From Candidatus Aminicenantota bacterium (lineage in GTDB: Bacteria; Acidobacteriota; Aminicenantia; Aminicenantales; UBA4085): a DNA stretch of 64,000 nt. Shown here in pieces: positions 3,246 to 42,950 of the stretch (positions are counted from its first letter, which is position 1; each line of letters begins with the position of its first letter). The DNA lies in contig PLMN01000010.1 in the NCBI GenBank assembly GCA_003141555.1, positions 124,001-188,000 on the forward strand, read 5' to 3'. The translations under genes were made by a program, and so were the position numbers. The notes below the pieces were generated by a model. It saw only the letters and a list, made by a program, of their open reading frames with translations. It made no database searches and was not told the origin of the DNA.

Positions 3246-3258
3246 CATGAAGGAAAAT

Positions 3259-3323
3259 GGGAGACACAATACCTGATTCCCTATTCTCAGCGTAGAAATA
3301 GGGAATCAGGTATTGTGTCTCCC
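3259..3323. repeat. Family A palindromic repeat, intact copy
   Basis: A perfect inverted repeat with 27-base arms. The left arm begins GGGAGACACAATACC and ends CCCTATT; the right arm is its exact reverse complement, with an 11-base loop. It lies between the stop of the 179-residue ORF and the MazEF-like promoter. The same sequence recurs at 25091, 25863, 27619 and as half-arms elsewhere in the window. Confidence 0.9.
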
Positions 3324-3335
3324 TTTTCTATCGTC

Positions 3336-25004: not shown

Positions 25005-25059
25005 GGAAATCGGTGACACGATCCCAAATCAAGAGAATTGGGTCGCATCACCGATTTCC
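25005..25059. repeat. Family B palindromic repeat, copy 1
   Basis: Arms GGAAATCGGTGACACGATCC / GGGTCGCATCACCGATTTCC around a conserved, asymmetric centre AAATCAAGAGAATT. Sibling copies are at 25905 and, inverted, at 29698. Confidence 0.88.
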
Positions 25060-25090
25060 CGACGAAGGAGTTATATCATTAGGGAATAGC

Positions 25091-25151
25091 GGGACACAAT
25101 ACCCGATTCCCTATTTGAGGGATGGAAATAGGGTAACTAGTATTGTGTCCC
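25091..25151. repeat. Family A palindromic repeat, diverged copy
   Basis: Arms begin GGGACACAATACCCGATTCC and end TAGTATTGTGTCCC; paired with a few mismatches. It abuts the stop of the PIN toxin gene at 25153. Confidence 0.85.
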
Positions 25152-25152
25152 T

Positions 25153-25554
25153 CTATTTCGATTCGTGGCGCTTGAGCGGAAGATGATCGGCGATCACGGC
25201 ATAATGTTTGTCCGACTCGATGAGGACAAGGCCGTGGTCGATGCAATCCGTGGCGATGATGACGTCGGATAGGGGAACGGTCACTCCTTTCTTTTTCAAG
25301 GCATGCCCATTGCGACCTGCGGACTCGAAGGACGCGCGGCTGCTCGGGACGAACTTTAGCCCGGCGAGGGCGGAAGACAACCTTTCGATTTCAGCCGGGC
25401 TTCGGGCTCCGATCAGCAACTCCGCGATGATGATCCCGTTGATATGGACCCGATTATCCTCGATGAGCCCTTCGAGGAGTTCCCCATAGAGGGATTTTCC
25501 CTCCCGAAAGTAGGGGATCCAGACACTCGAATCGATGAAATATTCAGGTTTCAT
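25153..25554 (-). CDS. vapC: PIN-domain toxin VapC
   Basis: 133 residues. The PIN acidic residues are visible: YFIDSSVWIPYF (Asp), GIIIAELLIGA (Glu), VPLSDVIIATDCIDHG (Asp/Asp). VapC toxins are ribonucleases held inactive by VapB. The gene overlaps vapB by four bases. The proximity of VapB and the GLVLIESDKHYAVIA ending fit the VapC type well. Confidence 0.9.
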   Translation of the reverse strand: MKPEYFIDSSVWIPYFREGKSLYGELLEGLIEDNRVHINGIIIAELLIGARSPAEIERLSSALAGLKFVPSSRASFESAGRNGHALKKKGVTVPLSDVIIATDCIDHGLVLIESDKHYAVIADHLPLKRHESK

Positions 25555-25751
25555 ATGAGATCTTTGGACCGCAAGGCTTCCAGGTCGATATCCAGATCAA
25601 TCTTTCCCCGAAGGTGCTTCAGGTTTTGGCGGCGGACCCTATTGAGCATCTCCTCGAGGGAGCGGCGGACGAGCAGCGTTTTGCTTTTCTCTCCGGTCTC
25701 TTTCATCAAGTCCGTCATAAGTTCGTCGGGGATTATCAATGTGGTCCTCAT
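25551..25751 (-). CDS. vapB: VapB-type antitoxin
   Basis: 66 residues starting MRTTLIIPDELMTDLMKETG, a ribbon-helix-helix strand/helix, with KTLLVRRSLEEML. The C-terminal LKHLRGKIDLDIDLEALR is the segment that inserts into VapC and is also preserved in the relic at 20878. GGAG lies before the ATG. Confidence 0.88.
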   Translation of the reverse strand: MRTTLIIPDELMTDLMKETGEKSKTLLVRRSLEEMLNRVRRQNLKHLRGKIDLDIDLEALRSKDLI

Positions 25752-25768
25752 GCATATCTCCTATACAT

Positions 25769-25797
25769 ATAATCAATACATATAAGAAATATGTCAA
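25769..25797 (-). promoter_or_regulatory. Promoter of vapBC
   Basis: On the minus strand TTGACA (25797-25792), 17 bases, GATTAT (25774-25769). The spacer and flank hold repeated ATGTAT-type words that could be operator half-sites. Confidence 0.6.
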
Positions 25798-25862: not shown

Positions 25863-26012
25863 GGGAGACACAATACCTGATTCCCAAATTCGAGGACAGG
25901 GTAGGGAAATCGGTGACACGATCCCAAATCAAGAGAATTGGGTCGCGTCACCGATTTCCGATCGCGTCTCCCTATTCGGAGGCGGAAATAGGGAAATAGG
26001 TATTGTGTCTCC
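25863..26012. repeat. Family A palindrome split by a family B element
   Basis: The left arm (25863-25885, beginning GGGAGACACAATACC) and right arm (25987-26012, ending GGTATTGTGTCTCC) of a family A repeat lie 100 bases apart. The sequence between includes a complete family B palindrome. TCCC occurs on both sides of the inserted 83 bases (25882-25885 and 25969-25972), like a short target duplication. Confidence 0.75.
25905..25959. repeat. Family B palindromic repeat, copy 2 (nested)
   Basis: Almost identical to the copy at 25005, with the same AAATCAAGAGAATT centre; one base differs in the right arm (GCGTCACC in place of GCATCACC). It lies inside the family A repeat. Confidence 0.88.
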
Positions 26013-26017
26013 TTATT

Positions 26018-26767
26018 TCACAAGCGCGCCTGGCGCTTTTGGGACGTCAGCTCGCGGAGCGCGTCGGTGGCCACCCAGCGGGCGGCTCGCGTTTTTGTAT
26101 CGCCGCCTCTAGGGCCGGCGGCGCGCTCGTTCGCGGCGTCCCGGATCCGTTCGGCGCAGGCGATGGCGGCGTCGTTCAAAGCGCGGTTTCGCTTGCCGAT
26201 GTTGCGAAGCGCCCAGTTAACCGATTTTTTGACGAAATTGCGCTTGTCCCAAGCCTCGCGCTCGATGATCGGAAGGAGCGCAAGAAAGGCCTTGTCGCCG
26301 GCCTTCTTGTCGTGGACCGCTAGGCCCGCCATCAAGGCGAAGGCGGCCCGCTTGACCCACTCATCGCCGCGCGCCGCCCATTCGACCGCCTTGGTCCACG
26401 CGAAGGCCGTCTGGTCGAAGAGGCTGGTCGTCGCCTGATCGCAGATGTCCCAGGAGTCGAAGTCGGCGGCCCACGTTTCGATCTGCCGTTCGGTGACCAG
26501 GGCCGGGTCGGTGACGAAGCAGGCCAGCAGCCGCGCTTCGTGGTTTCCCGTCTTCCACAGGCCGAGCGCGAGTTTGTAGTCCGTGCCGAGACGGTTGGCG
26601 ATCACGCGGAGCTGATAAACTGAGACGCCGAACGCGTTCTGGACGTTGATCCCATAGCGGGCCATTCCTGCCCTGTCCCGGTCGCTGCCAAGGGAACGCA
26701 GTTCCGCCAGTATTTTGGCTATCTGCATGTTCAACGATTCCGTGGTTTCCGGAGATTTGTGCCGCAT
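26018..26767 (-). CDS. DNA alkylation repair protein (AlkD-like)
   Basis: 249 residues of HEAT-like helices matching the AlkD/COG4912 family: FGVSVYQLRVIANRLGTDYK, ETWAADFDSWDICDQATT, VEWAARGDEWVKRAAFALMA and NFVKKSVNWALRNIG. Members remove bulky alkylated bases by a glycosylase without base flipping. The ATG at 26767 has GGGAGG five bases upstream; the much longer open frame above it is non-coding. It ends next to the nested repeat. Confidence 0.88.
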   Translation of the reverse strand: MRHKSPETTESLNMQIAKILAELRSLGSDRDRAGMARYGINVQNAFGVSVYQLRVIANRLGTDYKLALGLWKTGNHEARLLACFVTDPALVTERQIETWAADFDSWDICDQATTSLFDQTAFAWTKAVEWAARGDEWVKRAAFALMAGLAVHDKKAGDKAFLALLPIIEREAWDKRNFVKKSVNWALRNIGKRNRALNDAAIACAERIRDAANERAAGPRGGDTKTRAARWVATDALRELTSQKRQARL

Positions 26768-26935: not shown

Positions 26936-27166
26936 ATGCAGACGACGATCTCCAAGCGCGGGCAGACGGTCGTGCCGGCCGTCCTCCGGAAAAAACACAA
27001 CATTGAGGAAGGCGACCGGCTCGTTTGGATCGACGATGGAGAAACCATCAAGGTGGTCCACCTCTCCGGCGATGCCGTCCGGAATCTCAGGGGAATCGCC
27101 AAAGGGGAGGGGTTGCGCGAAGATCTGTTGAAATGGCGGCGCGAGGAGCGGTCGCGTGAAACCTGA
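26936..27166 (+). CDS. AbrB/SpoVT-type antitoxin
   Basis: 76 residues from MQTTISKRGQTVVPAVLRKK, the swapped-hairpin AbrB fold signature (SKRGQTVVPAxLRKxxNIxEGDRLVW). GGAGG at 26921 is only one base from the ATG at 26927 but 10 bases from the one at 26936, which is therefore preferred. It overlaps the PIN toxin gene by 11 bases and should repress the operon. Confidence 0.86.
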   Translation: MQTTISKRGQTVVPAVLRKKHNIEEGDRLVWIDDGETIKVVHLSGDAVRNLRGIAKGEGLREDLLKWRREERSRET

Positions 27167-27566
27167 CCGCTATGTTCTGGATACGTCCGCTCTATTTGCC
27201 TATATGGAAGACGAGTCCGGATCCGCCATGGTGGGGGAAATTCTGAGCGATCCGAAGTCCTCCGTTCTTATCCCCTGGCCGGTCCTCTTCGAAGTCTATT
27301 ATTCGACGAGACGGAAAAAAGGCGAGAAGGAGGCGGATCGCCGCTACGCCTTGGTCAAGGAGCTGCCGGCCGAGATCGTGTGGGCTTTTGATGAGCCGCG
27401 CCTCCTTGCGGCCGCCCGAATCAAGGCCAGGTTTCCGCTTTCCTTTGCCGACGCCATCATTGCGGCCACGGCCGAACGGGAACGCGCCGTGCTCGTCCAC
27501 AAGGACCCTGAATTCGACGCGCTCGAAGGGACGGTTCGGTTACGGGCTCTGCCTTATAAAAGCTGA
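27156..27566 (+). CDS. PIN-domain toxin of the AbrB-type module
   Basis: 136 residues from GTG. PIN residues: YVLDTSALFAYMEDE, LFEVYYSTRRK and FPLSFADAIIAATAERE plus VLVHKDPEFDAL. The last two supply the third and fourth acidic residues. VapC-like ribonuclease activity is expected. Third PIN toxin in the window, and distinct in sequence from the other two. Confidence 0.9.
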   Translation: MKPDRYVLDTSALFAYMEDESGSAMVGEILSDPKSSVLIPWPVLFEVYYSTRRKKGEKEADRRYALVKELPAEIVWAFDEPRLLAAARIKARFPLSFADAIIAATAERERAVLVHKDPEFDALEGTVRLRALPYKS

Positions 27567-27618
27567 GGGAATTATTTTGGCCGCCTTGCTCCGGGGCGGG
27601 CTCCTGTAATAATAAATA

Positions 27619-27684
27619 GGGAGACACAATACCTGTTTCCCTATTCATAGAATGGAAAATAGGGTAATAGGTATTGTGTCTCCC
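27619..27684. repeat. Family A palindromic repeat
   Basis: Left arm GGGAGACACAATACCTG...CCCTATT and right arm AATAGGG...GGTATTGTGTCTCCC with a few mismatches, between the PIN toxin stop and the GH3 start. Confidence 0.88.
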
Positions 27685-27717
27685 ATTTTGCAGCCGGCTA
27701 TTTTCAAGGAGGCGCTA

Positions 27718-29654: not shown

Positions 29655-29697
29655 ATCTCGGCTTTAGGGCGCGGGGAATTCGGTGACAGAAAGGCGG

Positions 29698-29752
29698 GGA
29701 ATTCGGTGACGCGACCCAATTCTCTTGATTTGGGATCGTGTCACCGAATTCC
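29698..29752. repeat. Family B palindromic repeat, inverted copy
   Basis: The asymmetric centre appears here as AATTCTCTTGATTT, the reverse complement of copies 1 and 2, so this copy is in the opposite orientation. Just before it (29675-29689) an extra arm GGGAATTCGGTGACA is left over. Arms carry compensating changes (GAATTC in both) that keep the pairing. Confidence 0.85.
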
Positions 29753-29765
29753 GATTTCTGGAAAT

Positions 29766-29794
29766 TCGGAAATCAGGTTACTGACACCGATTTA
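29766..29794. repeat. Half-arm of a family C repeat
   Basis: A single arm reading TCGGAAATCAGGTTACTGAC followed by ACCGATTTA, identical to one arm of the full element at 35637. Confidence 0.7.
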
Positions 29795-29851
29795 TTGTAT
29801 GTAATAATGTGAGCAGAGAATCGCATGGAGCCCAACGCGAGAGGGGAAATA

Positions 29852-35636: not shown

Positions 35637-35710
35637 AAATCGGTGTCAGTAACCTGATTTCCGTATTATTGGTGCGGGAAATCCGGAAATCAGGTTACTG
35701 ACACCGATTT
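35637..35710. repeat. Family C palindromic repeat, intact copy
   Basis: Perfect 27-base arms: AAATCGGTGTCAGTAACCTG...TTCCG and its exact reverse complement, with a 20-base loop. It lies in the divergent sigma/FAD-oxidase gap. Directly after it (35711-35725) a half-arm AGGTATTGTGTCTCC of family A follows. Confidence 0.9.
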
Positions 35711-35753
35711 AGGTATTGTGTCTCCATATTCTTATTGTTAGAATTCGGGGCGC

Positions 35754-42482: not shown

Positions 42483-42563
42483 ATAGCCGCGGTGTCATGG
42501 CGAGAGAAGCGAAGCCATCGCGTGCCCCCGGCGGGTCCTGTCGCCGACCAGCCCCACCGGCCT

Positions 42564-42638
42564 CCGAAAAATGGGGACACAGAACCCTGTAGTCTATCTG
42601 TTTATAGTTGGTTGGCGTTCTGTGTCCCCGTTTTTCGG
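42564..42638. repeat. Palindrome CCGAAAAA(T/C)GGGGACACAGAAC
   Basis: Arms of 22 bases with one mismatch around a 31-base loop. The GGGGACAC ends recall family A. With a 13-base indel the pairing continues into GCCCCACCGGCC on both sides. A third, partial copy (GGGACACAG) is at 42696. Confidence 0.75.
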
Positions 42639-42728
42639 TCCCATTCGCTTCGGCCGGTGGGGCGCCCCGGTCGGCGCCACCCGCCTCTGATAAAAGGGAC
42701 ACAGCCTCCTGCCTTAAGTTGGTGAGGA

Positions 42729-42874
42729 GGCTGGGGAGGGCGGGAGAGAAAACCCGTCGAAGGCCCGAGCGGGCATGGTTCGTCCCGCTCTTGCGGGGCG
42801 AGAGCGAGGGCCGGAGTCGGAGAGGCCGCGCGCGCTGGGCGCGGCCTCGTGTTTTCGACCCGCCCTCCCCAGCC
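42729..42874. ncRNA. Structured-RNA-like branched element (candidate)
   Basis: A 16-base perfect closing stem GGCTGGGGAGGGCGGG (42729-42744) / its complement (42859-42874), extended by GAAAAC/GTTTTC. It encloses GGCCC/GGGCC (42762-42766/42808-42812) around GAGCGGG/CCCGCTC (42767-42773/42784-42790), and a hairpin AGGCCGCGC/GCGCGGCCT (42823-42831/42839-42847) with a seven-base loop. This branched fold is what a structured RNA would show; a palindromic mobile element core is the alternative. Strand is undetermined. Confidence 0.4.
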
Positions 42875-42950
42875 CCAGATTTATTATCGGACTATGGGGC
42901 TGGTCGGCGACAGGACCCGCCGGGCACGTCATCTTACGCATTCATCTTGC

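Follow-up and report, generated by a model that had tools for sequence, protein, structure and literature searches.

Nested REP-like hairpins in a Candidatus Aminicenantota genome and the probable entry of one family into another

Palindromic repeats that lie inside one another can record the order in which mobile elements arrived in a genome, or they may have grown together without any such event. The 64,000-nt stretch of Candidatus Aminicenantota DNA analysed here (the window) raises this question at positions 25863-26012, where the two halves of a palindrome of one family (A) stand on either side of a palindrome of another (B). An earlier note on this DNA had taken the arrangement as direct evidence that B moves. 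Here we ask what the composite is made of, which elements and enzymes may account for it, and whether insertion is the best explanation for it.

Architecture of the composite

The coordinates and pattern matches bear out the description of two A halves parted by a segment with an intact B palindrome (Table 1). The family-A hairpin, with left half GGGAGACACAATACCTGATTCCC and right half GGGAAATAGGTATTGTGTCTCC (located within 25991-26012), is split by 83 nt (25886-25968), and the interrupting segment contains the whole of the B palindrome GGAAATCGGTGACACGATCCCAAATCAAGAGAATTGGGTCGCGTCACCGATTTCC. The TCCC reported at both ends of this segment is present at each junction (25882-25885 and 25969-25972), and the distance between the two copies is exactly 83 nt, or 87 nt if one TCCC is counted. 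Rejoining the flanks across the segment does restore a near-normal A hairpin, as had been proposed: the resulting 78-mer folds into one long hairpin of -43.4 kcal/mol (with RNA parameters), and removal of 83 nt from the 147-nt composite leaves 64 nt, the modal span of the A elements found elsewhere in the genome (61-96 nt). If the 55-nt B core alone had moved, the host A element would have spanned 92 nt, which is likewise normal; since both values are normal, the breakpoints are not fixed by span and the insert may have measured anything from 55 to 87 nt. Since the two arms of an A pair are often unlike, the halves seen here are not provable as one former element.

In the left linker AAATTCGAGGACAGGGTAG, between A half and B core, the first 10 nt form the reverse complement of CCTCGAATTT, which lies upstream of the left A half. 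On the other side, the B core is succeeded by 13-17 nt (GATCGCGTC followed by TCCCTATT) that resemble an extra B half-site fused to an A stem; in another B copy in the genome (contig C18, L007, read in B orientation), GATCGCGTCACCGAATTCCC stands where the composite has GATCGCGTC and TCCCTATT.

Table 1. Coordinates of the composite, of its parts and of related repeat elements in the window
Feature	Position	Strand	Basis
Left half (REP half-site) of the interrupted A hairpin	25863..25885	+	Exact match to GGAGACACAATACCTNNTTCCC
Left linker AAATTCGAGGACAGGGTAG, from A half to B core	25886..25904	.	Sequence read
Intact B hairpin, 55 nt	25905..25959	+	Identical to two other genome copies
Apparent extra truncated B-type half-site GATCGCGTC with A-type stem TCCCTATT; holds the right TCCC	25960..25976	-	
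Right half of the interrupted A hairpin	25985..26012	-	A pattern match
B hairpin	25005..25059	+	Pattern match
A hairpin, starting 25 nt past the B hairpin at 25005-25059	25085..25157	.	
Uninterrupted A hairpin	27614..27689	.	
Uninterrupted A hairpin	3254..3327	.	
Second nest, partly degenerate: C-like left half (29675-29688), B hairpin (29698-29752), C right half (29763-29795)	29675..29795	.	
C hairpin (35637-35710) with a lone A half (35712-35725) directly beside it	35637..35725	.	

Repeat families and their putative mobilisers

Both families are amplified throughout the 3.79-Mb genome. Pattern searches, combined with inspection of genome stretches, returned 45 half-site matches for A (23 forward and 22 reverse) and 35 for B (17 and 18), with none on either strand for the reversed-pattern controls, and a third family, C (AAATCGGTGWCAGTAACCTGATTTCC), accounts for 57 matches against 0 in its control. 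Single A half-sites also occur. A, B and C are best described as REP-like miniature elements, each a pair of half-sites that face inward, and of the type that RAYT (TnpA-REP, Y1/HUH) transposases spread. In an alignment of 26 B cores, compensatory changes on both sides of the stem are found in 8 of 24 pairs, a figure that none of 500 shuffles reached and that slid controls also fell far below, and B is hence a structurally conserved hairpin. Six B copies have an identical 41-nt centre and the B core of the composite matches two further copies over all 55 nt, which is consistent with recent spread. Several genera of the order possess the family. The 26 aligned copies bear no apparent GTAG or CGTC tag at their ends, and an Rfam search gave nothing meaningful, its one miRNA match on a palindrome being below threshold. 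The C pairs (L270-L299), for their part, fall into length classes of about 66, 112-120 and 138-151 nt with loops apparently unrelated in sequence, which would be odd if C pairs replicate as a unit.

Two Y1/HUH transposases of RAYT type are encoded in the genome, RAYT1 on contig C22 and RAYT2 on contig C17. Their products score 48.0 and 49.1 bits against the Y1_Tnp profile (PF01797), above the Pfam cut-off of 23, and 58.9 and 52.9 bits against the NCBIfam equivalog NF047646, below its cut-off of 80, for which reason we describe them as RAYT-like. Both fit the REP-associated model better than that of IS200/IS605, and no transposase of the latter class was found in the genome, where the search recovered only these two genes. 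RAYT1 (L001) is flanked by A half-sites and RAYT2 (L002) by C. In four further genomes, from the same order or family, RAYTs likewise have A-type repeats beside them, and most of the remaining RAYTs inspected bear inverted repeats of their own. On the basis of this linkage, A and C each act like a REP/REPIN family that has its cognate RAYT. None of the 60 RAYT loci with flanking sequence, from this genome and its relatives, is flanked by B. This family may be an orphan, or it may have been moved in trans, possibly by RAYT2, given the terminal motif AAATCGGTGAC that B shares with the ends of C. B cores are also found in a genus relative, G001 (L152-L157, L225), where the only RAYT recovered is flanked by a different repeat, and B is therefore without a linked mobiliser in that genome as well.

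Origin of the composite

Our preferred explanation, to which we assign a probability of roughly two in three, is that a B element entered an existing A element at 25863-26012 through Y1-type transfer, the three families being REP-like and of a type that RAYTs spread. The inserted piece would probably comprise the 55-nt B core and one extra right half-site, and its landing place would be the central loop of an A element that was there before it. The chemistry is likely to have been strand transfer of the single-stranded, Y1 type, for which the loop of the older hairpin could have supplied a single-stranded target, and such a reaction would leave no target duplication.

It is on this last point that the locus departs from its earlier reading, a classical cut-and-paste insertion of B with TCCC as a 4-bp target duplication. 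TCCC does stand at both junctions, but 24 of the 26 B copies have some 4-mer that recurs in the 30 nt to either side, against 22.9 for mispaired flanks, which places the repeated TCCC at chance level. Direct repeats in these 26 copies are no more frequent than in mispaired flanks, either at the core boundaries (1.73 versus 1.97) or at the outermost ones (1.92 versus 2.18), so that the duplication claimed for this locus, and similar ones sought at other copies, find no support, and the target site duplication typical of DDE-type MITEs shows no excess across the set. TCCC is, moreover, part of the A arms, and its right copy falls inside the extra truncated B half-site, and is thus plausibly not a duplicated target. 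The only transposases linked to these repeats are Y1/HUH enzymes related to IS200/IS605, a class whose insertion generates no target duplication (PMC4227781), and the lack of one at B copies is what a Y1-type mechanism predicts. Taken together, these data make cut-and-paste insertion very improbable.

The most direct support for insertion would be an uninterrupted allele, and none was found among 59 relatives, searched with 1.65 kb of flanking DNA, or among GTDB contigs carrying the right-flank protein. The left flank of the composite is common only to G001 and a few other genomes; in G001 this flank, a PIN-toxin module, has neither A nor B with it, and a different region follows on its right. 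PIN-domain toxin genes (25153-25785 and 27156-27566) flank the repeat cluster in the window, and the first of these modules is located elsewhere in G001, between a PLD-like gene and a HEAT-repeat region. The gene on the right of the composite (26018-26767, minus strand), whose stop codon lies directly against the right-hand end of the A element, encodes a DNA alkylation repair protein with its closest relatives in the Myxococcales (73-75% identity) and was probably acquired horizontally.

Comparison with G001 is more informative at other loci. The sites orthologous to one B array (L176, ~780-885) and to one A element (L175, ~910-1010) are short spacers in G001 from which the element is absent, revealing a presence/absence polymorphism between relatives. 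These empty sites could instead reflect loss, and the intergenic spacers of G001 have diverged to the point that insertion boundaries are not readable base by base. At 35637-35730, the orthologous spacer of G001 (G001:C185, L174) has A-type repeats, with the right A half and the bases that follow it shared, and no C; the outer A is therefore common to both genomes and the inner C is not, making the inner element the younger one there. Hence, the earlier view of the composite as direct evidence of movement stands in so far as A and B behave as dispersing elements with empty sites in a relative, and is too strong for this particular locus, for which no uninterrupted allele was found.

A rather unlikely account, and still the main competitor of insertion, is mosaic accretion, in which A half-sites joined a B that was already in place, or the array extended outwards as half-sites were duplicated and palindromes served as templates for copying, in the manner of mosaic REP arrays, without B ever entering A. 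Lone A half-sites do exist, and extra half-sites beside B cores are common, show recurrent spacings of ~17 and 22-23 nt and are one-sided at several loci. Their orientation, nonetheless, is strongly biased, with 29 facing inward and 1 outward (binomial P ~6e-8, a value that is indicative as loci may share ancestry), and this bias, together with the complete A or B halves found to either side, favours the splitting of a hairpin that was there before. The age order at 35.6 kb, where G001 has the outer A half in common with this genome but lacks the inner C, also speaks against accretion.

Improbable, in turn, is the juxtaposition of unrelated hairpins by chance or by assembly in a repeat-rich intergenic stretch. 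REP-like elements cluster in the 23-36 kb region and the genome is a multi-contig draft assembly, but the position of B is exactly between two A arms still able to pair, and the genome harbours further nests of A, B and C, as well as a B inside a split B (L184, 3093-3215). If 5-15% of the genome is assumed to be intergenic, the expected number of B cores inside A loops genome-wide is ~0.02-0.07, and the composite on its own is thus only mildly significant; the corresponding expectation for B cores in A or C loops is ~0.07-0.21, with P ~0.002-0.02 for the two nests in the window. This moderate evidence indicates that nesting is probably not random. Yet another nested palindrome is found at 42527-42924, where a perfect 30-nt inverted repeat, with its arms 338 nt apart, surrounds a GGGGACACAGAACC-type REP hairpin and a long hairpin (~42725-42870).

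Relation to known systems and implications

The nesting of REPs within REPs is already known, and the composite adds a fresh lineage to it rather than a new mechanism. The formation of REPIN clusters through insertion into existing REPINs was reported in 2011 (Bertels and Rainey, PMC3116915). As in the REPIN/RAYT systems described there, inverted REPs are paired here as hairpins and several families coexist in a genome, each with its own RAYT; in contrast to them, the half-sites have other sequences and no identified GTAG tag, loops are highly variable in length and sequence, B is without a RAYT, and nests are hybrids between families. A second parallel is provided by TIRtrons, in which RAYT-like genes (TIRYTs) lie between inverted repeats of the GGGGWSAS type and which include a sharply defined group from the Acidobacteria (Di Nocera 2013, PMC3733652). 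Flanking repeats of this type are also found here, the A-type repeats of relatives being GGGGACAC, and in both cases some repeats have been amplified as dimers or groups; that study, which recognises four groups, covered other genomes, and the likeness drawn here concerns the repeats. The same work describes REP dimers within palindromes, GTAG-15 of A. variabilis and CGTC-1 of H. neapolitanus, which resemble the composite in having a REP hairpin inside another palindrome. Their outer palindrome, however, is a single consensus never seen without the REP, whereas the outer element here is an independently amplified REP family. With IS200/IS605 elements, finally, the present system shares a Y1/HUH transposase, hairpin ends and insertion without target duplication, but the genome contains only the two RAYT-type genes and no transposase of such an IS.

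How REP hairpins spread is an unsolved problem, and the strictly inward nesting and the nests formed between families are the part of these results that is worth following. Hybrid nests whose outer family is shared with a relative provide relative dates and insertion sites, and these could serve to test hairpin loops as targets. More generally, we put forward the tentative and as yet doubtful notion that RAYT-mobilised hairpins in this lineage preferentially enter the loops of hairpins already in place, whatever their family, the extruded loop acting as a single-stranded target. Were this so, loop preference would give rise to nested, strictly inward arrays, such as those whose flanking B half-sites point inward in 29 of 30 cases, with the older element always on the outside, and nesting would then constitute a readable order of transposition events.
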